The position numbers were made by a program, and so were the translations under genes. Positions 11,125 through 57,289 of a DNA stretch of 64,000 nucleotides are shown here, piece by piece. The DNA is taken from NCBI GenBank assembly GCA_015234045.1, contig JADFWU010000016.1:1-64000 (forward strand), read 5' to 3'. This DNA is from Magnetococcales bacterium (GTDB taxonomy: Bacteria > Pseudomonadota > Magnetococcia > Magnetococcales > JADFWU01). A model generated the notes under the pieces. It saw only the letters and a program-made list of their open reading frames with translations. It was not told where the DNA came from and ran no database searches. The stretch's first letter is position 1; the number at the start of each line of letters is the position of its first letter.

Positions 11125-12120
11125 ATGAGCACCACACCTGCCACCGCAGCACAACAAAAAAACCAGCCAGGATTTTTGCGTGGAGTGGTGGTAGGTGCGG
11201 TGTGTGCTCTGCTTCTCTCCGGCATAGCAATGGCCAGCGGTTTTTTGGACCTTGATAACACGCCTTCCAAACAAAAGCCTGTTATTGCTGAAACAGAACC
11301 CGTATTCCAACTATCCAGCACAGTACAAAACATTGCCCAAACTTCCGAAGTACTGCTCCAAGCTTGGCAGGATGGCGGACAACTCCATGAAGCACGCCGC
11401 AAAGGCAGTGGCCTGTTGAGTCTAACGGGGCTTCCTGCCGGTGCATACACCCTGATGGTGCGTTTTGACCAGCAACCCGCCATGATCTATGCCGGTCAAA
11501 ATCAATGGACCCGTACTTTGGATATTGCCTCCAAACTCTCACTTGAGGGCGACACGGATGACCTGCTTCTGACACCCACTCAAGACGATACTGTTAACAC
11601 GCTGATTTCCGGATTATTAACCCATCAAGGCCACCCCATCAGCGGACAGGTTGTCACCGTGCGTGATGGCAACGGTGCTGCCGTGGGCGTTACACTCTCC
11701 AAAGAGGATGGTAGCTTCTCCGTTGAAGGACTCCAACCCGGTACCTACACCCTTCAGGCAGACGGCGAAAACATCACCGGTTCCAAACCGGTAGCGCTCT
11801 CCGAGTCAACACAAACATCCCTACTGTTACCCATGGAGCCGAAAACCAAAAACGTTAAAGGACGGCTGGTTGGCTATGGTGCCGGCACACTTGTACGCAT
11901 CATGGACAGTAACGGGACTTTGCTTGCCGCCACGATCACCGGTGATAATGGCGAATATGATGTCCAAGGTATCCCGGCAAACACAACACCCGAGATCATG
12001 ACCGTCCCGAACACCCCTACCACATCTTCGCCCTCTACATCCTCACCTCACACAAACGCGCCAACCCGAGAACAGTGGAAACAGAAACAGACCCGCACTC
12101 TCAGTGATCTCGGACCATAA
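11125..12120 (+). CDS. Membrane-anchored protein with carboxypeptidase-regulatory-like repeats
   Basis: A 331-residue protein. A hydrophobic segment (about 14-38, VVVGAVCALLLSGIAMASGF) acts as signal anchor. Three beta-sandwich units of the carboxypeptidase regulatory / SpaA-like type follow: LSLTGLPAGAYTLMVRF near 105; GQVVTVRDGNG with FSVEGLQPGTYTLQADG near 175-235; VRIMDSNGTLLA with YDVQGIPANT near 255-290. The tail is Pro/Thr/Ser-rich and then basic. Such repeats are usually cell-surface adhesive or structural. Similar G-x-Y-x-L units recur in the 2258-aa protein at 19992. ATG 11125 has AAGAGGAACC. No specific function can be assigned. Confidence 0.75.
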   Translation: MSTTPATAAQQKNQPGFLRGVVVGAVCALLLSGIAMASGFLDLDNTPSKQKPVIAETEPVFQLSSTVQNIAQTSEVLLQAWQDGGQLHEARRKGSGLLSLTGLPAGAYTLMVRFDQQPAMIYAGQNQWTRTLDIASKLSLEGDTDDLLLTPTQDDTVNTLISGLLTHQGHPISGQVVTVRDGNGAAVGVTLSKEDGSFSVEGLQPGTYTLQADGENITGSKPVALSESTQTSLLLPMEPKTKNVKGRLVGYGAGTLVRIMDSNGTLLAATITGDNGEYDVQGIPANTTPEIMTVPNTPTTSSPSTSSPHTNAPTREQWKQKQTRTLSDLGP

Positions 12121-19991: not shown

Positions 19992-22900
19992 TCAATTCCG
20001 GCTGATTGAATAGATCAGAACCGGCTCAATTGGATAGTTGGCCATAGGTGCTGCATTTGAGTCTTCCCCTGTTGTCTCAACCGCAGCAATCGTATCTACC
20101 ACATCCAAGCCGTCCGTTACCTGACCAAAAACCGCATAACCAGGCGTAACACCCAGTTGATAGTCCAAGAACAGATTATCTTTATGATTGATGAAAAATT
20201 GTGATGTTGCGGTATCCGCACCTGATTGACGCGCCATGGCAATGGTTCCGCGCAGGTTTGACAGCCCATTGGTCGCTGCTTCGTTCACAATAGACGCATT
20301 GGGCGTTTTATAAAACGGAACCAAATCACCGCCAGAGTATTTAAGCTCGAACCCGCCGCCCTGTATCATGAAGTCCTGGATAACTCTGTGGAATATCATA
20401 TAGCTATAATATCCACTATCTACATATTCCAAAAAGTTGGCTACAGTGATTGGCGATTTATCAGGGTAGAGTTCCAAAGTGATTGCACCCAGGCTGGTTG
20501 CAATCGTCACATCAACAGGCTCAACCGTAACCCCCAATGAAAGAGGCACACCATTCGCCGACACATTGGCCTCGCTGACCTCCAGCACACTATAGTCACC
20601 GTCTGAATCCACATCCACACGATAGCTGGCCGCACTATTCAATCCTGTCACGGCAAAGGCACCGTTTGAGTCCGCCACCACCGCATCAACAAAATCACCC
20701 ACACTATCATGAATCAACACCAACGCACCCGCACCGTTCTCAATGGTGCCAACAATGCTACCCGCGCCAGACTCCAGCTCCAACAGCAAGCCGGTTTGAT
20801 CCCCTGAAGCCAGTGACAATCCTTGTAACCCTGCAACATCACGCCCCTTTCTGGCTTCCAGGTTATACGTCCCACTGGCGGACAGACCGGTTATTTCAAA
20901 AGAGCCATCCTGTGCTGTTACGGCACTACCCGCGATTTTCAGTGTGTCATCCCATGCCTGGACGGTTACACCCGGTGTGACAACACTATTGGTCCACACA
21001 TCACCGGCAATTATCCGACCAGCACTCATGGCGATGGACAGGTTGGCAATATTGGAAAGAATCGTCACCCGACCTGCGTTTTCATGAGACACCTGCCAGC
21101 TGGAACCACTGTAGTACAAATCCACCAGATCTGGCGCAGAAACTGAGAGAGAGTATGATCCTGACGGCACACCGGTTATTTGAAAATCACCATTGCCACT
21201 GCGTTTGGTCTGAGCATAACTGCCACTGTCGGAAATCGCTGTGATGGTGACCACCTGATCAGCCAAGGCATCGGGAATACCAGTCAAACTCCCGGAAATG
21301 GTCAGACTCTGACTGGTTGTCAGATTCATATCCAAACCGTTGAGCGTCTCTCCCTCATCCAATGAAAGCCGTGTTGCAGTAACCGGTGTACGCACCACAC
21401 CTGCTTGACTGAAATAATAGCGCCCGGATTTTGTCTCAACAGCTAAAATGAGATCATCAGCAGGCAGAATACCGCGCAAAGTGAAGTCATCCGAACCATA
21501 TCCCGAACCATATATTGTATCGGTTATCTGCTGATCATTGGTGCTGCTCCATGCTTCAATCTGAGCCTGTTCATTACTGGTCAGGCCATAAATAACACCG
21601 TCAAGACGACCACCCTCAAGCAAACTGAAATTGATATTGCTGCGACTACCACCGGTGAGATCCACCAGCTGCGGTGCCACTCCACGTTCTGGCACCTCAA
21701 CGGAGACACGATAATCCTCTACGCTATGCAATCCTGAGAACACATAGCCACCCTCATTTTCAATAGGCACGGAAACAAAGTGATTCTGCACGTTCGACCA
21801 GGCGTTAACGCGACCGGTAACAGCGTCTGGCAAGTTACTGACAGTGCCGCTCACTGAACGCCCACTACTCAGGAAAACATCAACATCACTTTGTGATTCC
21901 GACTCCAGATTGAAGCGCATCGCATCAATAAAGGTCGTCAACCCGCTCGCACTATAGTATCCACCAGGCTGATAATCGCTTTCGACAAACAACCGGTAAT
22001 CTGAAGCGGGAGGCAGGCCTTTGATGGCAAAGCTACCGCTGGAATTCAGCATCACACGACCACCTCGACTCAACCGAGAGGACCACGCTTCCACAACAAC
22101 CGGTCCTTGACTGACACCCGAAACGGTACCGGAAATGGACATACCATCAGACAACGCCACATGCACATCTCTGGACGTGGTCAGATCAATCTGTGCTGCC
22201 CGTTGCTCACCCGCTGGAGACAACCCGTCACCTGCATAGAATCCACCAACCTGATCTCCGTTTTGCGGCGTGATCATCACCTGATAGTCATCCGCTGAGA
22301 TCAAACCAGTCAGCATTGCGCTAACCGAAGTGTTGAGCGCGGTCACCGTAGTCCAAACAAAACTGCCAGAGTGGTCCGAATAGGCCATGACATCGAACAT
22401 ATCACCCGGCTGTGTACCAGTCAGATTGACCGTTAACGAGATCCCCTCTTCCACTTGGATATTGATACCGCTGATATCATGCTCTGACAGATCCAACAGT
22501 GTGGCCTGATCCCACGCTCTCAAAGGTGTGGGTAAGCCATCGACCACACCCTGCCAATAGCCATCTGCATAACGTTCGGCAGTGACAAAAAGACGGTAGT
22601 CGCTGGCCGGTTGCATATTCTCGATAGTAAACGGTGCGAACGCACTTTCCGCCGTCAGGGTGAGGGTACGCGCAATGGATTTACTCTCTGACAACGCAGA
22701 GATAATCAGCTGATCTCCCGTACTCAACCCACTGACCATGCCAGAAATCGCATAACGCGCTTCCGCCACGTCCACGGTAAAGCTTTGTTGCAGGGTATTG
22801 CCATCCGACCCGGTCACTGTGAGCGTTACAGTCTGCGAACCGGGTTGCTTAAACGTATATATGACCTGTGAACCACTGCGGGTATTGCCATCTTCAAAGA

Positions 22901-25900
22901 GCCAAAGATAATCGGTCACTTCACCGCCTGCTTGCAGGGCATTGGCTTGGAAGATCTGAGCCTTAGACGCACGTGCCTCGGTTGGCAATACCATATCTTT
23001 GATGACAATTGTGCCTGGAGGACCAATATCACCATCATCTCTTTCCAGGGCATACAACTTGGTAAGTGTTGCACCGGAACTCATGGTAAACGTATCGGAA
23101 ACATCCAGATATCCACTGACATCAGTGGTCAGTGTTCGGCTACCACTTGCCAAGGCCAGTGAAAAGCGACCACTGGTATCGGTTTGGATGGTCTCACCCC
23201 CAACAGTGACCGTGACATCCGCCATACGGTGCAGATCAAGGCTGTTAAACAGCACGCCATTGACTACACCCTCTCCAACACCCACCACGATATCGTCTTG
23301 CGCTGGACTGCCCAACGCAAAGAGTCGCATATCACTATCACTGTTACCCGCCGCATCAATCGCACGCGCTTTAATGGTGTAGAAATCGGAAGGCAAAGAT
23401 CCACCCCCCGTCACCACGGCGGATGAAAGGTTCAGCGACCAACCATAAACACCATTGCTACCAGAGAGGGAATCCACATCAATCCAGGCGGATTCCTGTG
23501 TCCATTGATAGCGGCTACTACTGTCATGCCTGAGTTGAAATTGTCCGTTGGATATCTGCACGTGAACAGTTGGCATCGCGCCACCAACGTCAGACACCGC
23601 ACCGGAAATCAAAGGAAAAGCACTGCTTGATGACAGTATTTCCTGATCAACAGGCGTGGTAATGGAAACCACTGGATCAGTGTCATCCACTGTAAACACA
23701 GCACTTTTGACACCCTGACTATACCCGCCGCCATCAATGGCGAAATAACGCAACGTGGTCGTTTGAGAGAGCACAAACGGCGCACTGTATTTGGGACTGG
23801 ATGTGGTAGGTGACGTACCATTTGTGGTGTAGTGAATAGCCGTACACCCCAAAGCAGAAGCGTATTCACAGTCAAAGGAGACAGTAACAGGCTCTGCAAA
23901 GACACCCGGCGTTGGTGAAATAACTGCCGCCGGACCAGACAGTGAGAGCACTGTAATGGAAAAAGGATCAAGAATGGCTGTTGCCGTACCATCGGAAACC
24001 GTGATGGTCACATCATAAGTGGTTCCGGCTGTCTGAGGTGTACCGGTAATTTTTCCGGTACTGGTATTGAATGATGCCCAAGCTGGCAGGTTTTCGACTG
24101 TAAATGTCAGGCCCTGTCCATCCACATCCAGCACATCCGGCTGAAAACTGTAGTCTCGACTCGCCTTGATTGTCGTAACCGGCGAACCGCTGATTATCGG
24201 TACATCGTTAACAGGCTCTATGATAATTTCATAGCTGTGATTTTCAGCATCCGACGTGTTGGCTTTGTAGGTAATGGTATCCACGCCATTGGCATTGGCG
24301 AACGGCGTATAAGTAAACGCGCCCGTACTGGTATTGAGGTCTGAGATAATCCCTTTTTCCGGCTGTCCTGTAATGGCATAGGCATACGGCTTGGTGGCAC
24401 CATCCGGTGGTGGCAATACGCCGCTTCCGCCGTTATCTTCGATCAAATAAAGCTGTGTGTCATTCTGAACCAGATCCAGATCCTGTCCACCTGAAGTGGT
24501 TGTAATTACGATGGGACGATAGTGATCCCCGGAAATACCGAGACCAAGTTGGCTGACATCATTGCGGCCCCATCCCAGTACATGGCCATCACTACGCAGT
24601 ACCAGGGTATGATCCCAGGCATCCAGAATGATACCGCTGATCAAACCGGGAATCTGAGCAGGAAAAAACGTGGAATCCTGGTTGTCCGTACCCAGTTGAC
24701 CATATCGATTATCACCCCAACCATAGCCCGTACCATCGGTCAGTAAAGCCACAGAGTGGTTGCGTCCACCAGCCATGACATGGACATCGTACAGACCCGG
24801 CACCAAGGTTGGTGCGGTCCGGTCCATATAATCTCCCAGTCCCAACTGGCCATAGTGATTGGCACCCCATGCGCGAATGCGCGCGCTGTCGGTCTTCACC
24901 ATCGTATGGCGCTCACCCGCTGCAATGGCGGTAATGTTACCCAGACTTGGCACCGCTGTTGGTTGGTCGGCGATTACCGTATGCCCTAACCCCAACTCAC
25001 CCCGACTGTTCTCGCCCCAACTGTACACCACACCATCGGAAGTCAACGCCACACTGTGCAAACTGCCTGTAGCAATCTCCACAACCCTGGAAAGACCACT
25101 CACCTCCGCTGGCGTTGAGGTAGATATCCGGCTACTGTTACCCAACTGTCCGTTACCGTTATAACCCCAACTCCACACCACACCACTGGATTGCAGAACC
25201 ATTACATGTCCGGCACCCGCTTCAATCTCTATCAGATCAGTGGGCAGTCCGGTAATCTTGACCGGTATACTCAGATCCTGTGTACCACTGGCGGTTAAAT
25301 AACCAAAAGCGTCCCAACCCTGAATCCATACCGTGCCATCTCTTTTCAAAATCGCCGAAAAGCCTTCATCCGGATCCAAACCACCGACACTGACTTGACT
25401 GACATTCTGAAATTGGGTGCTCTTTTCCGGTCTGCCAATCTCATCAATACCGGTTACACCCGTCTGACTCTGTGCATTAAACCCCCACCCCCACAGATCA
25501 CCGTCATCGGAAACCGCCAGACTGTGTGGACCGGCGGAAAGCGTGGCTGTGGTTGTCACCGGGATGCTACTGCCAGGCACCACGGCGGTAGTAAGCGAAA
25601 AAATCTCTTCGGTATCAATAGGATTAACTACTGGTGCAGGCTCACTGAGATTGGTGGTGGTCGTGTTACCCAACTGACCGGAATTGTTACCACCCCAGGA
25701 GTACAGTTCACCTTGATTTGTCTGCGCGATAAAATGGTAACCACCGGCACTGATTTTACTGATACCCGTCAACGTACTGATCTGGGCAGGCGTATTGGTT
25801 TTGGTCTTATGACCTAGCCCCAACTGACCATAGTTGTTCTGTCCCCAGCTCCAGAGAGTGCCATCCTGACGCAATACTACTGAAGAGCCCGTACTTGCCG

Positions 25901-26768
25901 AAATCGCCACCACTTGTGAAAGCGTTGATACGGTTATCGGTATAAATGTATCGGTATTGTTGCCAATACCAAGCTGTCCATTGTAGTTATCACCCCACAC
26001 CCACAACGCACCACTGGATGTCATGGCCATGGCGTGGTTATTACCAGCACTGATTGCCACTACCGTATCGGGCAATCCGGCAATCTGCACAGGCGCTCTG
26101 ATAATCGATGAAATACCCGGATCTTGACCAAGCTGTCCTTGATCATTCCTGCCCCACCCCCAAACCGTTCCATCCTGTTTGAGGGCAAGCATATAGTTTG
26201 AGCCTACTGAAATCGCCTGCACACCACTTAATGTAGAGATTTTCGAAGGTGTCAATTTTTTGCTGACATCACTTCCCAAACCTAATTGACCATACTGATT
26301 ATGACCCCATGACCAAACGTAGCCCGCGCTATCCAGAGCGGCACTGAAATAGTCACCCGCATCAATGGCGGCAATATCTGACAAACTCCACAACCGGGTT
26401 GGTTGATAAATATTTTCATCACTCCCGAGACCCAGCTGGCCAATACCATTATTACCCCACACCCACACGGAGCCATCTTCTTTCAACAACAGACTATGGA
26501 GCAACCCCGCTGCACTGGCCTTTGCCTGTGAAACATTGGGCACTTGGGTGGGAATGGAAATGGGCGTGTCCGAGGTCGTATTATTACCAAACTGACCGTC
26601 TGAATTACGCCCCCACACCCAGAGCGTGCCGTCGGCATGGACACCCAGCGTATGGTTCACACCTGCGGATATATAAGGTTCCACCGCGTCAACAGATGGT
26701 GTCATCACCATCTGAATGAGTAGCGTAAGAACAAAGGCAAAGCCCATGATGGCGGCGTTGCGCTTCAT
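19992..26768 (-). CDS. Giant exported RCC1 / Ig-like / PKD / cyclophilin protein
   Basis: 2258 residues with a signal peptide (1-28, ending SVDA). Two RCC1 beta-propellers (about 30-385 and 395-790; W-x-W-G-x-N-x-x-G-Q-L-G units) open it. A cadherin/Big-like unit, a He_PIG domain (LPAWASFNTSTGKITGTP), a chitobiase-C-like unit (IHYTTNGTSP), a PKD domain (near 1280-1360) and about nine carboxypeptidase-regulatory-like repeats follow. The last 195 residues are a cyclophilin-type prolyl isomerase: FHRVIQDFMIQGG keeps the Arg, Phe, Met and Gln active-site residues and SQFFI is present, but the usual late His is Tyr (GYAVFG). It is probably surface-exposed or secreted, with a prolyl isomerase at the tip. 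The start has a strong AAGGAG ribosome-binding site. Large plus-strand ORFs here are shadows. Confidence 0.88.
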   Translation of the reverse strand: MKRNAAIMGFAFVLTLLIQMVMTPSVDAVEPYISAGVNHTLGVHADGTLWVWGRNSDGQFGNNTTSDTPISIPTQVPNVSQAKASAAGLLHSLLLKEDGSVWVWGNNGIGQLGLGSDENIYQPTRLWSLSDIAAIDAGDYFSAALDSAGYVWSWGHNQYGQLGLGSDVSKKLTPSKISTLSGVQAISVGSNYMLALKQDGTVWGWGRNDQGQLGQDPGISSIIRAPVQIAGLPDTVVAISAGNNHAMAMTSSGALWVWGDNYNGQLGIGNNTDTFIPITVSTLSQVVAISASTGSSVVLRQDGTLWSWGQNNYGQLGLGHKTKTNTPAQISTLTGISKISAGGYHFIAQTNQGELYSWGGNNSGQLGNTTTTNLSEPAPVVNPIDTEEIFSLTTAVVPGSSIPVTTTATLSAGPHSLAVSDDGDLWGWGFNAQSQTGVTGIDEIGRPEKSTQFQNVSQVSVGGLDPDEGFSAILKRDGTVWIQGWDAFGYLTASGTQDLSIPVKITGLPTDLIEIEAGAGHVMVLQSSGVVWSWGYNGNGQLGNSSRISTSTPAEVSGLSRVVEIATGSLHSVALTSDGVVYSWGENSRGELGLGHTVIADQPTAVPSLGNITAIAAGERHTMVKTDSARIRAWGANHYGQLGLGDYMDRTAPTLVPGLYDVHVMAGGRNHSVALLTDGTGYGWGDNRYGQLGTDNQDSTFFPAQIPGLISGIILDAWDHTLVLRSDGHVLGWGRNDVSQLGLGISGDHYRPIVITTTSGGQDLDLVQNDTQLYLIEDNGGSGVLPPPDGATKPYAYAITGQPEKGIISDLNTSTGAFTYTPFANANGVDTITYKANTSDAENHSYEIIIEPVNDVPIISGSPVTTIKASRDYSFQPDVLDVDGQGLTFTVENLPAWASFNTSTGKITGTPQTAGTTYDVTITVSDGTATAILDPFSITVLSLSGPAAVISPTPGVFAEPVTVSFDCEYASALGCTAIHYTTNGTSPTTSSPKYSAPFVLSQTTTLRYFAIDGGGYSQGVKSAVFTVDDTDPVVSITTPVDQEILSSSSAFPLISGAVSDVGGAMPTVHVQISNGQFQLRHDSSSRYQWTQESAWIDVDSLSGSNGVYGWSLNLSSAVVTGGGSLPSDFYTIKARAIDAAGNSDSDMRLFALGSPAQDDIVVGVGEGVVNGVLFNSLDLHRMADVTVTVGGETIQTDTSGRFSLALASGSRTLTTDVSGYLDVSDTFTMSSGATLTKLYALERDDGDIGPPGTIVIKDMVLPTEARASKAQIFQANALQAGGEVTDYLWLFEDGNTRSGSQVIYTFKQPGSQTVTLTVTGSDGNTLQQSFTVDVAEARYAISGMVSGLSTGDQLIISALSESKSIARTLTLTAESAFAPFTIENMQPASDYRLFVTAERYADGYWQGVVDGLPTPLRAWDQATLLDLSEHDISGINIQVEEGISLTVNLTGTQPGDMFDVMAYSDHSGSFVWTTVTALNTSVSAMLTGLISADDYQVMITPQNGDQVGGFYAGDGLSPAGEQRAAQIDLTTSRDVHVALSDGMSISGTVSGVSQGPVVVEAWSSRLSRGGRVMLNSSGSFAIKGLPPASDYRLFVESDYQPGGYYSASGLTTFIDAMRFNLESESQSDVDVFLSSGRSVSGTVSNLPDAVTGRVNAWSNVQNHFVSVPIENEGGYVFSGLHSVEDYRVSVEVPERGVAPQLVDLTGGSRSNINFSLLEGGRLDGVIYGLTSNEQAQIEAWSSTNDQQITDTIYGSGYGSDDFTLRGILPADDLILAVETKSGRYYFSQAGVVRTPVTATRLSLDEGETLNGLDMNLTTSQSLTISGSLTGIPDALADQVVTITAISDSGSYAQTKRSGNGDFQITGVPSGSYSLSVSAPDLVDLYYSGSSWQVSHENAGRVTILSNIANLSIAMSAGRIIAGDVWTNSVVTPGVTVQAWDDTLKIAGSAVTAQDGSFEITGLSASGTYNLEARKGRDVAGLQGLSLASGDQTGLLLELESGAGSIVGTIENGAGALVLIHDSVGDFVDAVVADSNGAFAVTGLNSAASYRVDVDSDGDYSVLEVSEANVSANGVPLSLGVTVEPVDVTIATSLGAITLELYPDKSPITVANFLEYVDSGYYSYMIFHRVIQDFMIQGGGFELKYSGGDLVPFYKTPNASIVNEAATNGLSNLRGTIAMARQSGADTATSQFFINHKDNLFLDYQLGVTPGYAVFGQVTDGLDVVDTIAAVETTGEDSNAAPMANYPIEPVLIYSISRN

Positions 26769-27033: not shown

Positions 27034-30000
27034 TTACTGAGGACCAACGATGCCTTCCTTGTTATCTCCCCAGATACCAGACCAAACCTGCCCACCATGG
27101 ATATAGTGAACACTGTCATTTAACAACAACGCCCGATCCTGTGCAAAGTACCAATAACCGCCGTCAGTATCACCATTGTCCCGACTCGAAATGGTGATCT
27201 GCCCAATGGGATCAATACGCTCTTGCAGAGAAGATGCGCCATCAGAGTAAATATCGAACAAGTGCAAACCGGTATCAGTCCAATCATACCAAGTCCAAGG
27301 TTGACCCAGATCGGCCCATGCATGGGTTGGCTCGGTATCATGGCGTTTAACGGGAATGGCCAACCTTCCGGGCTTACCGTCCATAGGCGGCAACCAAGCC
27401 ATGGCATGATGATCACTGAGGATGCCGGAATCCGTACCACGTTGACCAATCACATGGGATTCAAGTTCTGATGGATTATCAGGGTCCGCGACATCAAACA
27501 GAGTCAGTTTGAGTCCCTGATACCACGCGCCACGCCCACCCATATCTGACGCGTCTGTATCCGCCACAGCTGTTTTTCCTATACCCAACAACAGGGTTTC
27601 ACCAATGGGATGCAGATAGTCGGAATACCCTTCAATATGCAGCGCACCACGTTGAACCGGGTTGAACGGATCGGCCAGATCAAACACATATAGAGGATCG
27701 GTCACCTTAAAGGTCACCAGATAAGCCCGTGAGCCGACATAGCGTACCGAGTACAAACGTTCACCCAACGCGCCAATACCATCAACATGAGCGGTCTCTT
27801 CCAAGCTTGGCAGAACAGTGGACAGATCACTCGTTTTTTCCTGCAACAAGGTCAAGCGCGTGGTTGCGGTGTCGTTCCAAGTCTGTCCCAAAGAAGTTGC
27901 AATACGCAGGGTGTTGTCATACTCACTCATGCGAAACGGTTTTTTATCCTGCTCCCAGCCCAGAGTACCTCGAACAGTACCAGAACCCCGATAGAGCGGC
28001 CCCTCTTCCGTGAGTGAAAATTTATGTATGGCTGTCGTTTCCACCATTTCAACAGGTTCCATCAGGGCATCAAACCGCCCTATTGGTCGGATTCGCGGTG
28101 CTGCGTAATTCACACGGGTTGTGGCCAGATAGAGACTCTCGGTAGAAACATAGATCGTCTCGGTAGGCCCAACAACACAGTGCGCCAACCACTGATCAGG
28201 CTGTGCCAGGTCAATGGTCACCAGTGTGATCAGATCAGGCGTTATGGCCCGTTTTTCTGAAAAAGAGGGCACAAAGCAGTTTTCCGGCTCCACCAGATCA
28301 CCGTGATCAATACCGTTGATTGAGATATCAGGCAACAAATCAGAAACCGTTATCTGTTCTGTAAGAGTCTGATTATCCTGTTTTTCGGAATCCGTGACCG
28401 GATAGTAGTTGAAATCGCGTGGTGACGGTGTATAGCGGGTGACCAGGTAGAGTTTCTCACCGATGCGCCGACTGGAAATCAACTGACCATTGATCTTGAT
28501 ATGGGTGTTGCGTTCGATAGCCGTTGGGTCAGAGACATCATAAAAACCGATTTCAGTATCACCGGAGCGCCAATACCAAGGACTCAACCACATTGCCCAC
28601 ATGTTACTGTTGCGACCGCCTACGGTAACAAGCATATCTGCCGCATCTTCGGGACGGTTGTTGGCCAGATAGAGTCCATCAACCTGCTCGTCCGATTCAA
28701 AGGCAATTTCATCCACCTCAGTAACGGATGCAGGATCATCACGCACACGCAATACCCGCAGATGTTTTTTCGTATAATGGAAAGGTGCCACAAAACTGCT
28801 CACGGCAACATCCGATTCTACACTGTTATCGGTTATTGATTGGTCTGAGATGAGATAAAGATAGTGACCATCGCTTTTGATCCGATCCGCCTCATCCACG
28901 CCAACCTCTTGGAGATTGGTACTGGAAACAGTGGCACCACTACCGGCATCACTGCTGGCATCCGCCTCCATGGCAGTAGCCATATATAAACGATCATACA
29001 TTTGGGGCGTGGCACTATCCAACAGCCCTTGAGTCAGGAAATCCTTGAGCGCCTCACCACTGGCCACCTGAGCCAGAGCAAAGCCCGGCCCACTCTGTCC
29101 TTGAGGTCTCATGGCAAGATGAATCATGCCAGGCTTTTGTTGGGTGTCAGTCGCTGTTGTTACAGGCAGCGTGATTCGATTCCAGGCTTTGTGTTCCATA
29201 CCGGTTGTCAGATCGTCCCGCACTTCATACCAACCCGCACCATCACGAGCGCTGAGACTCAGTACCAACTCATCCGATGGATCATCATCCATATTGGCGC
29301 ACGCAGGCATGACAGCCCCAGAACGTTGGTTATAACCACGCCATCCCAACCGCAACCAACCCCGTCTCAATCCAGTAGCACTTTTGGTATGAAGAGCATC
29401 AGCACTATCAAACACCCTCAACCAGCCACCACCACCCTGCCCCATGCCCAACAGCAACTCAGAAGCGCCGTCACCATCCAGATCACAGATAGCTGGCCAA
29501 ATACCCTCATCATTTCTCTGATATTTTAAATGACCAGGACGCTTCCAATCCAGATGTGCAAAAGATGCCTGAGCGTCATCAAACACCTCTACCCAACCTT
29601 TACCGCCTGGACCCGAGGCAATGACGATTTCGTCAGCACTGTCCTGATCCAAATTACCTACCGCTGGTCTCACACCACCGCCGGAACGGTTATATTTTTT
29701 ACCGGAATACCGTTTCCAACCATTTGTGTGGCTCGTACCTGCGATTTTTTTATACCCATGCAGGGCATCATCCAGCAACAGAAACCAACCCCGACTACCA
29801 TCACCCAAACCGATCACCAACTCATCCAGACCATCGTCATCCAGATCACCACAGGCGGGCATGGTTTCGCCGTTGGCATCGTTATATTTTTTCCAGGGAA
29901 TCCGCAACCAGCGCAGATGCGCATGACTGTGACTCTCATCATCAAGAATCTCAATCCAACCACCACTGCCCGGCCCAAGCCCAACCACCAACTCATCCGC

Positions 30001-30249
30001 CCCATCACCATCAACATCACACCAAGCAGGCCGTGTATCACCGTCATGCTGGTGATTATCGTCCCCACTCACCCGAACACGCCCTTCTGAACTGGCCGGA
30101 TCAAAAGGATCAAGCAACGCCACGGCACCCGCACCGCCCACACCATGACTCATGGCCATCGCACCAGGCAGCCCTGCATTGGCATTGAAAGAAAAGAGGC
30201 AAAAAAGGAAAGCGCCGAGAATAGAACCAAGCATGGTGTGACGAATCAT
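27034..30249 (-). CDS. Exported protein: FG-GAP/VCBS-like repeats plus C-terminal beta-propeller
   Basis: 1071 residues. A signal peptide (about 1-26, ending ANAG) precedes six or so FG-GAP/VCBS-like units (about 45-350) with D-x-D-G-x-x-E-L (DVDGDGADELVVGLGPG, DLDDDGLDELVIGLGDG). These resemble calcium-binding integrin-like blades. From about 435 the protein matches the secreted beta-propeller family of PF09826: NLQEVGVDEADRIKSDGHYLYLISD, later DPLYVFDLADPFNPVQRGALHIEGYSDYLHPI and LFDVADPDNP. The family function is unknown, and peptidase-inhibitor or adhesive roles have been guessed. It lies 265 bases from the 2258-residue gene on the same strand. The start at 30249 has GGAAGTG. Confidence 0.85.
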   Translation of the reverse strand: MIRHTMLGSILGAFLFCLFSFNANAGLPGAMAMSHGVGGAGAVALLDPFDPASSEGRVRVSGDDNHQHDGDTRPAWCDVDGDGADELVVGLGPGSGGWIEILDDESHSHAHLRWLRIPWKKYNDANGETMPACGDLDDDGLDELVIGLGDGSRGWFLLLDDALHGYKKIAGTSHTNGWKRYSGKKYNRSGGGVRPAVGNLDQDSADEIVIASGPGGKGWVEVFDDAQASFAHLDWKRPGHLKYQRNDEGIWPAICDLDGDGASELLLGMGQGGGGWLRVFDSADALHTKSATGLRRGWLRLGWRGYNQRSGAVMPACANMDDDPSDELVLSLSARDGAGWYEVRDDLTTGMEHKAWNRITLPVTTATDTQQKPGMIHLAMRPQGQSGPGFALAQVASGEALKDFLTQGLLDSATPQMYDRLYMATAMEADASSDAGSGATVSSTNLQEVGVDEADRIKSDGHYLYLISDQSITDNSVESDVAVSSFVAPFHYTKKHLRVLRVRDDPASVTEVDEIAFESDEQVDGLYLANNRPEDAADMLVTVGGRNSNMWAMWLSPWYWRSGDTEIGFYDVSDPTAIERNTHIKINGQLISSRRIGEKLYLVTRYTPSPRDFNYYPVTDSEKQDNQTLTEQITVSDLLPDISINGIDHGDLVEPENCFVPSFSEKRAITPDLITLVTIDLAQPDQWLAHCVVGPTETIYVSTESLYLATTRVNYAAPRIRPIGRFDALMEPVEMVETTAIHKFSLTEEGPLYRGSGTVRGTLGWEQDKKPFRMSEYDNTLRIATSLGQTWNDTATTRLTLLQEKTSDLSTVLPSLEETAHVDGIGALGERLYSVRYVGSRAYLVTFKVTDPLYVFDLADPFNPVQRGALHIEGYSDYLHPIGETLLLGIGKTAVADTDASDMGGRGAWYQGLKLTLFDVADPDNPSELESHVIGQRGTDSGILSDHHAMAWLPPMDGKPGRLAIPVKRHDTEPTHAWADLGQPWTWYDWTDTGLHLFDIYSDGASSLQERIDPIGQITISSRDNGDTDGGYWYFAQDRALLLNDSVHYIHGGQVWSGIWGDNKEGIVGPQ

Positions 30250-44216: not shown

Positions 44217-45329
44217 ATGCACTCTGTTCCCTTTTTCGATTATCAGGCACTGTTTCGACAGCATGGTAACGCAATGATGGCCATCATTGCGGATTGTGCC
44301 GAGCGTGGCGCATTAATCATGCAGCAGGAACTGCTCGATTTTGAAACAAAGCTGGCCAAATTCATAGGCGTAGACCATGCCATCGGCGTTGGAAACTGCA
44401 CGGATGGGCTCTATCTGGCATTAAGTCAATCCGGCATCGGTGCTGGCGATGAAGTCATTTTTCCGGCTCATACATTTGTTGCCACCGCCGGTGCCATTAA
44501 ACAGGCCAATGCCATACCCGTTCCCGTAGAGTGTGGTACGGACCATTTGATTGATCCCAACGCAATAGAGCAAGCCATCACCCGCAATACACGCGCACTA
44601 TTGCCGGTCCAACTCAACGGGCGTGTGGCACAAATGGACCACATTCTCGCTATTGCCAAGCAGCATGATCTATTGGTGATTGAAGATGCAGCCCAAGCGC
44701 TGGGCGCGACGTTTCAGGGTAAAAAAGCGGGCAGTTTCGGTCTTGCCAGTGCATTCAGCTTCTATCCTGCCAAACTCGTTGGCGGATTGGGCGATGGCGG
44801 TGCTGTGGTGACCAATGATGCGGTATTGGCGAACAAAATCCGCGCCGCCCGAGATCATGGACGAGATCCAGAGCAGGGTACTATCCAATTTTGGGGGATG
44901 AACAGCCGATTGGACACGATCCAAGCGGCGGTACTCTCCTATCTGTTGGATCATTTTGATGAGGTGATCATCAAACGCCGTCACCTGGCCAATCTCTACA
45001 ATGAACAGTTACACGATCTTGATGATCTGACTCTACCACCAGCGCCGTCTGATCAGGGGGCCAACTGGGATGTATTTCAAAATTACGAGATTGAAACCAG
45101 TCACAGAGATCAATTGAAAGCGTATTTGAACCAACAGGGGATCGGCACCGCGCTTCCTTGGGGCGGTCAAGCGGTTCATCAATGGGCCAATCTTGGCTTT
45201 TCCTGTGCACTTCCGGTCACTGAACGCATCTTGTCACGGTCGTTGATGTTGCCGTTGAACATGGCGATAAAGGATGCCGATGTGCGCTCTGTCTGTCAGA
45301 CCATTCGAGGCTTTTATGAACAGGTCTGA
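44217..45329 (+). CDS. DegT/DnrJ/EryC1-family aminotransferase
   Basis: A 370-residue PLP enzyme that aminates keto-sugars (or dehydrates deoxysugars in a few members). Family marks are IGVGNCTDGLYLAL, EVIFPAHTFVATAGAI, VIEDAAQALGATF, and the PLP lysine in FSFYPAKLVGGLGDGGAVV. ATG 44217 (MHSVPFFDY) is 14 bases after the methyltransferase stop and better than the ORF's TTG 44169. In the operon it probably introduces the amino group on the sugar whose carbon frame is built by the split transketolase. Confidence 0.9.
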   Translation: MHSVPFFDYQALFRQHGNAMMAIIADCAERGALIMQQELLDFETKLAKFIGVDHAIGVGNCTDGLYLALSQSGIGAGDEVIFPAHTFVATAGAIKQANAIPVPVECGTDHLIDPNAIEQAITRNTRALLPVQLNGRVAQMDHILAIAKQHDLLVIEDAAQALGATFQGKKAGSFGLASAFSFYPAKLVGGLGDGGAVVTNDAVLANKIRAARDHGRDPEQGTIQFWGMNSRLDTIQAAVLSYLLDHFDEVIIKRRHLANLYNEQLHDLDDLTLPPAPSDQGANWDVFQNYEIETSHRDQLKAYLNQQGIGTALPWGGQAVHQWANLGFSCALPVTERILSRSLMLPLNMAIKDADVRSVCQTIRGFYEQV

Positions 45330-46170
45330 AGCGTGCCATAAAGCCTGGCAAAACGACACGCCAATGCTTGCAAAACATATCCGTAAACATGCTTTAATGA
45401 TGACCAATCGAGGCAATACCGCCCATATCGGCTCTATTCTTTCCATGACAGATATCATTGCCGTGCTTTATGGCGCGGTGATGCGTTTTGATGCGGCCAA
45501 ACCGGATTGGATCGGACGAGATCGCTTTATTCTCAGTAAAGGTCATGCAGCCGCTGGTGTTTATGCGGCTTTGGCAGAGTGTGGGTTCTTCTCTACAGAT
45601 ATCTTAAAAAGTCATTGCCAATCCAATTCACCTCTGTGTGGCCATCTCACTCATAAGCCCCTTCCGGGGATTGAGCACTCTACCGGCTCTTTGGGCCACG
45701 GCTTATCTGTGGCATGTGGTCGGGCATACAGCTTGAAAAAATCCGGTTCGGACAGTCGCGTTTTCGTTGTAATGGGCGATGGCGAATGCGATGAGGGTGC
45801 CATATGGGAAGCGGCACTGTTTGCCGCACACCATCAGTTGGATAACCTGGTAGTGATCATTGATCGCAATCACTTACAAAGCATGACCACCACGGAGAAT
45901 ACCGTAAAGTTGGAGCCATTCGCTGATAAATGGCGGGCATTTGGCTGGGCTGTGGATCAACTGGATGGTCATGATCATACCGCTCTGAATACACGCTTGA
46001 CCACCCTGCCCTTTCGTTCGAATCAACCCAACTGCCTGATTGCCAATACGGTAAAAGGGTGTGGTGTTGGCTTTATGGAAAACCAGGTACTTTGGCACTA
46101 TCGGTCACCGCAAGGCAGTGAATTCATTGCAGCCTGTCACGCACTTGAGCATGGAGACAATAGTGCGTAA
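45316..46170 (+). CDS. Transketolase, N-terminal (TPP-binding) subunit
   Basis: 284 residues, half a transketolase: FILSKGHAAAGVYAALAE, GSLGHGLSVACG, and the TPP motif GDGECDEGAIWEAALFAAHHQLDNLVVIIDRN. ATG 45316 overlaps the aminotransferase stop by 14 bases. Split transketolases usually serve specialised metabolism rather than the pentose-phosphate pathway, moving two-carbon units to make unusual sugars or cyclitols. It pairs with the next gene. Confidence 0.92.
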   Translation: MNRSEACHKAWQNDTPMLAKHIRKHALMMTNRGNTAHIGSILSMTDIIAVLYGAVMRFDAAKPDWIGRDRFILSKGHAAAGVYAALAECGFFSTDILKSHCQSNSPLCGHLTHKPLPGIEHSTGSLGHGLSVACGRAYSLKKSGSDSRVFVVMGDGECDEGAIWEAALFAAHHQLDNLVVIIDRNHLQSMTTTENTVKLEPFADKWRAFGWAVDQLDGHDHTALNTRLTTLPFRSNQPNCLIANTVKGCGVGFMENQVLWHYRSPQGSEFIAACHALEHGDNSA

Positions 46171-47104
46171 TGCGTTTATTGAAACACTCATCACCCTGGC
46201 TGAGAAAAATCCTCGCCTGATGTTGATAACCGCTGATTTGGGATTTCGGATTTTTGATGATTTCATAGAGCGCTTCCCAGAACAGTTTCTCAATGTGGGT
46301 GTAGCGGAACAAAATATGATCGGTGTGGGCACCGGTCTGGCTCAGGAAGGATGGACTGTATTTGCCTATTCCATTGGCAACTTTTCCACACTGCGCTGCC
46401 TGGAACAGATTCGCAATGATGCTGCCTACCATAATGTCAATCTGACCGTTGTGGCATCCGGTGGCGGGATGGCTTATGGCACGTTGGGCATGTCACACCA
46501 CGCCACCGAAGATTTGGCTATCTTGCGTGCTTTGCCTGGCATCACCGTGACTGCGCCCTGTGACGTATTGGAAACAGTGCAACTGACACAGGCGTTAGCA
46601 GATCGACCGGGTGTCGGCTATCTGCGTCTTGAGCGCAGCAGTAGTCTGAAGTCTGATCAACCTGTGCATTTAGGTCAACCACGGCGATTACGCGAAGGAA
46701 ACGACCTGACGTTGATGGCCACTGGCGGCATTGTTTCCGAAGTAATGGCCGCCGCAGAGATGATGGTCAACCATGGAATCGAAGCCCGTGTATTGAGCAT
46801 TCACACGGTGAAACCACTCAACCCTTCTGAAATCCATGCAGCCATCATTGAAACGGGCGGCATTGTCACAGTTGAAGAGCATACTGTAATGGGCGGGTTG
46901 GGCAGTACGGTGATGGAATGCTTTGTTGAACAGGGTATGACACCGGGCTTTTTCATGCGTCTGGGATTACCGGATCGTGCGGTGGACCAAGTGGGCGATC
47001 AAGCCTGGTTGCGTACGCATTATGGATTGGATGCAGTGGCCATTGTCCAGCGTACACGCCAACTGTTTGCGACAAAAAAAACGCAACACTGTGGTATCCA
47101 ATGA
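46151..47104 (+). CDS. Transketolase, C-terminal subunit
   Basis: 317 residues forming the pyrimidine-binding and C-terminal domains: LGFRIFDDFIERFPEQFLNVGVAEQNMIGVGTGLA, TVFAYSIGNFSTLRCLEQIRND, and EEHTVMGGLGSTV. The start at ATG 46151 overlaps the N-subunit stop by 20 bases, ensuring equal synthesis. The catalytic Glu that activates TPP lies in GVAEQNM. Together with the preceding gene it forms an active heterodimer-type transketolase. Confidence 0.92.
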   Translation: METIVRNAFIETLITLAEKNPRLMLITADLGFRIFDDFIERFPEQFLNVGVAEQNMIGVGTGLAQEGWTVFAYSIGNFSTLRCLEQIRNDAAYHNVNLTVVASGGGMAYGTLGMSHHATEDLAILRALPGITVTAPCDVLETVQLTQALADRPGVGYLRLERSSSLKSDQPVHLGQPRRLREGNDLTLMATGGIVSEVMAAAEMMVNHGIEARVLSIHTVKPLNPSEIHAAIIETGGIVTVEEHTVMGGLGSTVMECFVEQGMTPGFFMRLGLPDRAVDQVGDQAWLRTHYGLDAVAIVQRTRQLFATKKTQHCGIQ

Positions 47105-55090: not shown

Positions 55091-55612
55091 ATGGGAGAAC
55101 CATATATCGGCGAGGTTCGCATTGTCGGCTTTGACTATGCACCAGTTGGCTGGGCCAAATGTGATGGTCAGACGTTATCAATAAACCAAAATCAAACACT
55201 GTTTGCACAACTCGGTGTAACATATGGTGGCAATGGGATAACCGATTTCAAATTGCCAGATTTGCGTGGGCGCGTACCCATTCATTTTGGCGATAGTTTC
55301 GGCGGGGTCTATTTGCGAGGCCAACTCGGTGGCGTACCATCGACCAATTTACACGAAGAACAGATGGCCACCCATAGTCATTACATCAGAGGATGCCCAG
55401 ACACAGCTGACACAGCTTTACCGGATCAGGCACTGTTCGCAAGCACTGACGACAAAAATGTCTATGAAAATATTGACACAGGTTCTTTGGTTCAGCTTCC
55501 AGCAGACACGGTAAATTCAACTGGTCAAGGTGCAGGACATCCGAACACGCAACCGACCCTGGTTTTGAACTTCATCATTGCTCTGCGTGGTCTTTGGCCA
55601 CCACGGGATTAG
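55091..55612 (+). CDS. Tail-collar-domain protein, paralogue 1
   Basis: 173 residues with an N-terminal phage tail collar domain (about 8-65): FDYAPVGWAKCDGQTLSINQNQTLFAQLGVTYGGNG, then FKLPDLRGRVPIHFG. The C-terminal half has the shared HPNTQPTLVLNFIIALRGLWPPRD end. These short non-phage collar proteins (microcystin-dependent-protein type) occur in groups of two to four in bacterial chromosomes; their function is unknown and no phage genes are near. ATG 55091 has GAGAGGTGGGTT. It is first of three tandem paralogues 13-15 bases apart. Confidence 0.9.
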   Translation: MGEPYIGEVRIVGFDYAPVGWAKCDGQTLSINQNQTLFAQLGVTYGGNGITDFKLPDLRGRVPIHFGDSFGGVYLRGQLGGVPSTNLHEEQMATHSHYIRGCPDTADTALPDQALFASTDDKNVYENIDTGSLVQLPADTVNSTGQGAGHPNTQPTLVLNFIIALRGLWPPRD

Positions 55613-55625
55613 CAGGAGATAAAAA

Positions 55626-56156
55626 ATGGATCCATTTATTGGTGAAATCAGAATGTTTACTGGCAATTTTGCACCAAGATTGTGGGCATTTTGCGATGGA
55701 CAATATGTGACACCTCAGCAACACAGTTCACTTTTTGCTCTTATTGGTGCCACTTATGGTGGAGATGGGTACACAAAGAGTGCACTACCTGACCTACGTG
55801 GACGCCTCCCTGCACACTACGGCCAAGGCCCAGGTACAGACTACTACATTCAAGGCATGACTCCTGGTTACGAGAGAATTCCCCTTTCAATCAGTCAATT
55901 GCCTAGCCATCGCCACTCAGTCTCTGCCTCTGGAGATCCTGCAAACGAATCAGCAATTACAGCAAACTCAAATGAGTCTGTTGCTCTAACAGATAGTCGG
56001 ACGCTGATCTATACAGAAGACAAATCGTCCATGAAAACCATGGACAGCGACACAGTGCAGGTAACCGGGAACTCATTACCACATAACAACATGATGCCAT
56101 ACACTGTTGTTAATTTTATTATTGCCCTTGAAGGTGAGTGGCCGAGCAGAACTTGA
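55626..56156 (+). CDS. Tail-collar-domain protein, paralogue 2
   Basis: 176 residues, homologous to its neighbours: MDPFIGEIRMFTGNFAPRLWAFCDGQYVTPQQHSSLFALIGATYGGDG, YTKSALPDLRGRLPAHYGQGPG, and the ending MPYTVVNFIIALEGEWPSR. The central variable part (about 95-150) differs most among the three, as expected if it contacts different partners. AGGAGATAAAAA precedes ATG 55626. There is no signal peptide; export, if any, needs another route. Confidence 0.9.
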   Translation: MDPFIGEIRMFTGNFAPRLWAFCDGQYVTPQQHSSLFALIGATYGGDGYTKSALPDLRGRLPAHYGQGPGTDYYIQGMTPGYERIPLSISQLPSHRHSVSASGDPANESAITANSNESVALTDSRTLIYTEDKSSMKTMDSDTVQVTGNSLPHNNMMPYTVVNFIIALEGEWPSRT

Positions 56157-56171
56157 TAAAGGAGACGTAAA

Positions 56172-56726
56172 ATGGCAGACCCATTTATCGGTCAAATCAC
56201 TATCATGGCAGGCAGCTATGCACCCAAAGGCCATGCTTTCTGTGATGGTCAGATACTTAGTATTCAGCAAAACCCCGAACTCTACAGTATTATTGGTATA
56301 GGTTATGGCGGTGATGGCCGCTCCACTTTTGGAGTACCTGACATGAGGGGCCGTGCACCACTAGGTGCAGGCTTTGGGACTGGACTGACTCCACACCCAT
56401 TTAATGGAAATAAATATGGCGGTGAACCCCTCCATACGCTTTCAGTGGAAGAAATTCCGTCCCACACCCATACAATCAACACATCTCAAGCTAAAGCTGA
56501 CTTAAACACACCATCTGCTGACACGTATGTTGGCAGACCTCAAGCAATGAAACGCAGAACGTTTTCTGACTTTTTTATGTACAGTCAGGATTTCATTCAA
56601 GAAGTTCAAATGAGCAACGCAGCCATGGGCGCAGCAGGCGCAAGTCAGCCACATGAAAACAGGCAGCCCTTTTCTGTGTTGTCATTTGTCATTGCATTGG
56701 CAGGAACCTATCCCCAACACAGTTAA
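56172..56726 (+). CDS. Tail-collar-domain protein, paralogue 3
   Basis: 184 residues: DPFIGQITIMAGSYAPKGHAFCDGQILSIQQNPELYSIIGIGYGGDG, FGVPDMRGRAPLGAG, PSHTHTINTS, and the end QPFSVLSFVIALAGTYPQ. Longest of the three and with a different distal loop (MKRRTFSDFFMYSQDF). AAAGGAGACGTAAA precedes ATG 56172. It is followed 29 bases later by a GNAT gene, probably in the same transcript. Confidence 0.9.
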   Translation: MADPFIGQITIMAGSYAPKGHAFCDGQILSIQQNPELYSIIGIGYGGDGRSTFGVPDMRGRAPLGAGFGTGLTPHPFNGNKYGGEPLHTLSVEEIPSHTHTINTSQAKADLNTPSADTYVGRPQAMKRRTFSDFFMYSQDFIQEVQMSNAAMGAAGASQPHENRQPFSVLSFVIALAGTYPQHS

Positions 56727-56755
56727 TCCAAAACAGGGACCTCGGAAAAGTCTGA

Positions 56756-57289
56756 ATGACCATGTGCGTAGAAAACATAAAAATAGTACTGCGCCCTTTG
56801 GAAGAGGAAAAGGACTTGCTCTTCCTTCAGTATCTTTACGATACCACACGCCATTGGGAAATGGTCCAGATCCAGCAGGCAGAAAACTGGACAACTGGAG
56901 AGATCATTGCTTTTTTGATCAACCAGTTTACGCTTCAACATCGGCAGTATATGGACAATTACCCCAAGGCCGAACACCACATAATAGAGTGTAACAGCCT
57001 CCCGATTGGGAGGCTTTATGTGGAAACTCAAAAGCATGAGATCAGAATCATTGATATCGCTCTGGTGCCAGAATATCAACAACAAGGTATCGGAGGGAGA
57101 CTGATTCAAAGGGCGCTAAAACGAGGCGAAAATCTGGGGTTGCCGGTTTCCATTCATGTGGAAAACAATAATCCGGCTATGACACTGTATCAGCGTCTTG
57201 GTTTCAAAAAAATTGACGAAGTCGGCATCTATCATCTGATGCGTTGGCATCCTGATGACAGAGAGTCAGATTCATTTGATGCGGCCTAG
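56756..57289 (+). CDS. GNAT-family N-acetyltransferase
   Basis: 177 residues. Acetyl-CoA motif A is IDIALVPEYQQQGIGGRLIQRAL (Q-x-x-G-x-G), followed by VSIHVENNNPAMTLYQRLGFKKI (motif B). The N-terminal part (VLRPLEEEKDLLFLQYLY) is the usual acceptor region. The acceptor is unknown; the position after three collar proteins suggests it may modify one of them, but that is speculation. ATG 56756 has CGGAAAAGTCTG. The plus-strand 113-aa ORF overlapping its start is a shadow. Confidence 0.88.
   Translation: MTMCVENIKIVLRPLEEEKDLLFLQYLYDTTRHWEMVQIQQAENWTTGEIIAFLINQFTLQHRQYMDNYPKAEHHIIECNSLPIGRLYVETQKHEIRIIDIALVPEYQQQGIGGRLIQRALKRGENLGLPVSIHVENNNPAMTLYQRLGFKKIDEVGIYHLMRWHPDDRESDSFDAA

Follow-up and report, generated by a model that had tools for sequence, protein, structure and literature searches.

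Bacterial cyclophilins are usually regarded as small soluble folding helpers. BLIP-II, a bacterial protein built on the RCC1-type propeller, binds a protein. Exported cyclophilins carrying extra, non-catalytic parts are known as the AquaCyps of marine Alphaproteobacteria (PMC4898713), and a 2010 review of RTX proteins gives three predicted members as cyclophilin-like PPIases (PMC3034196). Here, we compare with these systems a giant gene in the window, a stretch of 64,000 nucleotides from the genome of a Magnetococcales bacterium (G000).

The gene runs from an ATG to a stop codon as a single frame with no internal stop (Table 1). By inspection, the N-terminus of its product is an SPase I-like signal peptide (MKRNAAIMGFAFVLTLLIQMVMTPSVDA). 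The two RCC1 propellers of the initial annotation are borne out by PF00415, which matches 12 stretches (E 5e-136), and by motif spacing, which gives two seven-bladed propellers (7+7) of ~50-residue repeats, as in the RCC1 superfamily. The motifs of the first group lie at residues 52, 104, 154, 205, 258, 308, and 358; a long insert separates them from the second group at 428, ~478 (degenerate, read by eye), 534, 584, 634, 684, and 733. An AlphaFold2 (AF2) model of the RCC1 propeller matches UVR8, HERC2, RCC1, and BLIP-II, and was set aside as poor (mean pLDDT 50) and not used as support. The Ig/PKD/carboxypeptidase-like stalk was likewise recovered, with Pfam matches to He_PIG, CHB_HEX_C_1, PKD, and CarboxypepD_reg. 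No Pfam match to the RTX nonapeptide repeats (PF00353) was found in the protein, which thus does not qualify as an RTX exoprotein. A frameshift or other artefact is unlikely, since the frame is single and a sister cyclophilin stands in-frame in a second giant of the same genome.

Table 1. Features of the giant gene, in window coordinates
Feature	Position	Strand	Basis
Whole gene, 2258 aa, one open frame	19992..26768	-	ORF and translation
Sec/SPase I-type signal peptide, residues 1-28 (MKRN...TPSVDA|VE), without lipobox Cys	26685..26768	-	Inspection of translation
First RCC1 propeller, 7 repeats, residues ~29-383	25620..26684	-	PF00415, motif spacing, low-confidence AF2 model
Second RCC1 propeller, 6 clear and 1 degenerate repeat, residues ~405-790	24399..25556	-	PF00415, motif spacing
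Ig-like region: He_PIG (857-940), CHB_HEX_C_1/Fn3_assoc (952-1030)	23679..24200	-	Pfam
PKD domain, residues ~1253-1333	22770..23012	-	Pfam and paralogue comparison
Prealbumin/carboxypeptidase-regulatory-like repeat stalk, residues ~1336-2078	20535..22763	-	Pfam, paralogue alignment, homologue search
Cyclophilin (PPIase) domain, residues 2083-2258, up to the last residue	19995..20522	-	PF00160, E. coli PpiA match, AF2

Directly upstream of the giant gene, on the same strand, a frame of 1071 aa encodes a protein that carries a PF09826 beta-propeller domain (27034-30249, minus strand). Elsewhere in the window, tandem small proteins are encoded at 55091-57289 (plus strand); the two tested carry Phage Tail Collar domains, and two further frames of similar size come after them. 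In a sugar/glycosyltransferase cluster, the N- and C-terminal parts of a transketolase are encoded by two separate frames that overlap (45274-47104, plus strand).

Judged by its sequence, the C-terminus is a cyclophilin far beyond chance. The Pro_isomerase profile PF00160 matches residues 2087-2244 with 136.9 bits against a cut-off of 21.7 (E 9e-40), and the closest sequence match in the PDB is the E. coli periplasmic cyclophilin PpiA (E 2e-39). The protein falls outside the PpiA equivalog NF008151, scoring 164.2 bits as a whole against an NCBIfam cut-off of 308. In an AF2 model of residues 1970-2258, the stalk end is of low confidence and the cyclophilin is confident (pLDDT about 77-99 per ten-residue block). 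Foldseek aligns this cyclophilin model to 1j2a with a TM-score of 0.94 by target length and an rmsd of 1.7 Å, in agreement with the cyclophilin barrel fold.

Numbered as in human CypA, the residues retained by the domain are H54, R55, F60, M61, Q63, A101, Q111, F113, and L122 (H2127, R2128, F2133, M2134, Q2136, A2179, Q2190, F2192, and L2201), with F2200 at the Trp121 position and Y2211 at the His126 position. The catalytic residues Arg55, Phe60, Met61, Gln63, Gln111, Phe113, and Leu122 are thus all present, and the set is that of E. coli PpiA and PpiB. The Arg, Phe, Met, and Gln first read as active-site residues are indeed retained. The Tyr reported in place of the late His is also there, but it is the ordinary bacterial state and no peculiarity of this protein: it is invariant among 19 aligned bacterial cyclophilins, partly picked via a nearby peptide, and in all seven multi-domain cyclophilins discussed below. 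According to a 2026 review, Phe in place of Trp121 and Tyr in place of His126 are frequent in bacterial cyclophilins (PMC13162259). Both the alignments and this reported frequency led us to reject the Tyr as an inactivating change. The domain is probably catalytically competent and a probable prolyl isomerase.

It could instead be a binding module and not a working enzyme, its proline groove gripping matrix or partner ligands as one more adhesive domain. Cyclophilin grooves can hold ligands without turnover, and every other domain recognised by Pfam in the window protein is of a binding or structural type. Pure binding would not, however, require the full catalytic set that is kept (the equivalents of Arg55, Gln63, Gln111, and Phe113), and we consider this explanation unlikely.

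Homologues of the stalk were found in 9 of the 48 genomes of the order, G000 included, and 16 other stalk proteins were read, none of which contains a cyclophilin. In 15 of them (6 from G000, 9 from relatives), the frame ends 3-38 residues past the stalk match, which for one (L145) spans query positions 35-650 only. The sixteenth, at 11125-12120 of the window, aligns partially (query 588-791), its end lying 48 residues further on. This plus-strand frame encodes a 331-aa protein that contains part of this stalk repeat family and closes with a Pro/Ser/Thr-rich tail. Of the stalk proteins read, the giant is alone in having a further domain beyond the stalk. Three giants of the same genome (L111, L113, and L114 on contigs C23, C42, and C26) likewise combine RCC1 blades, PKD, and the same stalk, at 31-34% identity to the window stalk, but they terminate at the stalk end without a cyclophilin. 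By these alignments, the cyclophilin module is attached where a conserved PKD-plus-repeat stalk reaches its C-terminal boundary. L115:5391-6116 and L114:3-8375 are RCC1 frames that run off the ends of C35 and C26 and are likely the two parts of one RCC1/He_PIG/stalk giant of ~3,000 aa split in assembly. L112:2390-9805 encodes a multi-propeller giant of 2472 aa, in which TSP3 repeats divide at least 21 RCC1 repeats into blocks.

G000 encodes three cyclophilins: a small exported one (L001, 218 aa), the window protein, and L004 on contig C44. L004 (1917 aa) consists of an M12-type metalloprotease with an intact HExxHxxGxxH motif, DUF11, RCC1 blades, and then a cyclophilin, followed by further domains. 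It shares 66% identity over 880 aa with L113 (C42), up to the RCC1 end, beyond which L004 has its cyclophilin whereas its paralogue has PKD and stalk. Multi-domain cyclophilins occur in six genomes of the order (G000, G003, G006, G014, G042, and G046). The partner domains are an M10-type protease with RTX and ALTTAQ repeats (L006), RTX (L007 and L008), or Ig repeats (L005 and L009). In L006:4818-9896, the cyclophilin is embedded in a protein with the M10-type protease, RTX, and a long ALTTAQ-repeat tail; L007:4944-6341 and L008:5021-6397 are short cyclophilin-plus-RTX proteins. No type I secretion parts were found in ten tested frames neighbouring these three genes. The module might also serve extracellular proteolysis, as a part of secreted proteases and their relatives that facilitates folding or cleavage at prolyl bonds. 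The metzincin zinc motif is intact in two of the seven multi-domain proteins, L004 (HELGHNLGSMHE) and L006 (HEIGHALGLGHP), but the protease domain is absent from the window protein, L005, L007, L008, and L009, which makes such a role highly improbable.

In a maximum-likelihood tree of 62 cyclophilins, the bootstrap of which is not fully settled, the window and C44 modules are sisters (100/93) and join the cyclophilins of L006, L007, and L008, from three related genomes (98/82). This clade lies apart from the small housekeeping cyclophilins of the order, and the tree rejects a derivation from the genome's own periplasmic cyclophilin. Sequences of L005, L009, and Planctomycetota sit near the clade in a branching order that the tree does not resolve. 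Between the window and C44 modules, 67% of third codon positions differ, as opposed to 24% of second positions, and this excess points to selection on the protein sequence. As read from these codon differences, the split of the two modules is old and under protein-level selection.

The GC content of the cyclophilin segment (46.2%) is below that of any same-length stretch of the remaining gene (51.3%, sd 1.8), but its third-position GC does not differ from the gene, a mixed signal as regards a recent transfer. The low GC content would fit neutral accretion, that is, a module fused by recombination and tolerated with no giant-linked role, as would the fact that each fusion is known from one genome only. 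Against this stand the unchanged third-position GC, the purifying selection on the domain since a deep split, and the presence of the same clade in five multi-domain proteins with different partners; neutral accretion thus seems improbable to us. The comparisons suggest a recruited, probably active prolyl isomerase module that has moved among exported giants.

A profile of the seven modules, which favours its own members, was searched against 399 genomes of the phylum. Among the matches listed, frames above 700 aa came only from G000 (two), G014, and G042, the others listed being at most 630 aa; a cyclophilin in an exported giant is indeed unusual, as first proposed. Planctomycetota did not emerge as a source of giant cyclophilins: across 199 genomes, frames matched at E 1e-50 were no longer than 562 aa. 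RCC1 is present in 6 of the 48 genomes of the order, and only G000 combines it with a cyclophilin within one protein. In the best 80 named loci, the cyclophilin frames caught by a motif scan reach at most 555 aa, and none has RCC1 motifs. No relevant literature on RCC1 plus cyclophilin in bacteria was found, nor was the architecture found described. The general kind, a cyclophilin in an exported repeat protein, is already known; within the reach of these searches, the RCC1/stalk architecture is new. On a wider scale, we tentatively propose, as a possibility somewhat short of even, that one bacterial order may have a cyclophilin subfamily dedicated to giant secreted proteins, in which it would serve as an exchangeable module (in RCC1 giants, metzincin proteases, and RTX and Ig-repeat proteins). 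Such a subfamily would form a tethered prolyl-isomerase toolkit at work outside the cell.

Inspection and Pfam/NCBIfam searches revealed no anchor or sorting signal in the window protein (lipobox, PEP-CTERM, LPXTG, or C-terminal membrane helix); a non-covalent anchor is possible. The initial placement of the cyclophilin at the tip of a surface stalk is not upheld, as neither end has a recognised anchor and the signal peptide leads straight into RCC1. No secretion genes adjoin the window gene. On C44, three AAA_22 ATPases are encoded downstream of the giant on its own strand, and after them come an MshL/GspD-like secretin scoring 241.7, just below the MshL cut-off of 250.2, and a TPR protein (L004:1337-12475, L155:10876-14571). 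The two ATPases tested resemble the XrtA-associated ATPase model, with scores short of its cut-off. From its predicted genes, this neighbourhood resembles an MSHA-pilus or type II-like cluster in composition, and it makes export of the family via a secretin plausible; the genome holds four secretins.

Overall, we favor, with moderate confidence, an exported multi-domain protein in which a catalytically competent cyclophilin was added after the stalk and acts as a tethered extracytoplasmic foldase. The protein would cross the inner membrane by Sec and the outer membrane probably through a secretin. Its RCC1 propellers and Ig-like domains may bind a partner, matrix, or substrate, with the stalk as a spacer, while the tethered cyclophilin would isomerise prolyl bonds of nearby exported proteins, either partners or its own giant chain. 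It counts against this proposal that the cyclophilin is C-terminal and emerges last, so that it could not act on the chain during export. Further points against it are that neither an anchor or sorting signal nor an adjacent secretion gene was seen, that the models of the stalk end and of RCC1 are of low confidence, and that RCC1 plus cyclophilin is known from this one genome. The locus is a rare instance of a cyclophilin put to new use as an add-on module of large secreted proteins, a distinct subfamily being built into several sorts of them. The paralogues with and without the module offer a clean natural comparison, which makes the role of a tethered extracytoplasmic prolyl isomerase directly testable.

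Compared with known systems, the window domain has its fold and active-site residues in common with E. coli PpiA (PDB 1j2a/1v9t) and PpiB, and PpiA is exported too, but both are small enzymes, with a single domain and about 165-190 aa. The AquaCyps differ in their size of 293-300 aa and their NIC domain, and lack RCC1 and a stalk (PMC4898713). BLIP-II (PDB 1jtd, 3qhy) is a secreted RCC1-type propeller and a structural match to the window RCC1 model, but has a single propeller and neither stalk nor enzyme domain. In the predicted RTX proteins (PMC3034196), the cyclophilin is a module of an exported repeat protein, as it is here, and L007 and L008 are of that RTX kind while belonging to the clade of the window module. 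Unlike them, the window protein is devoid of RTX repeats; it carries a signal peptide and is built from RCC1, PKD, and a prealbumin-like stalk instead.
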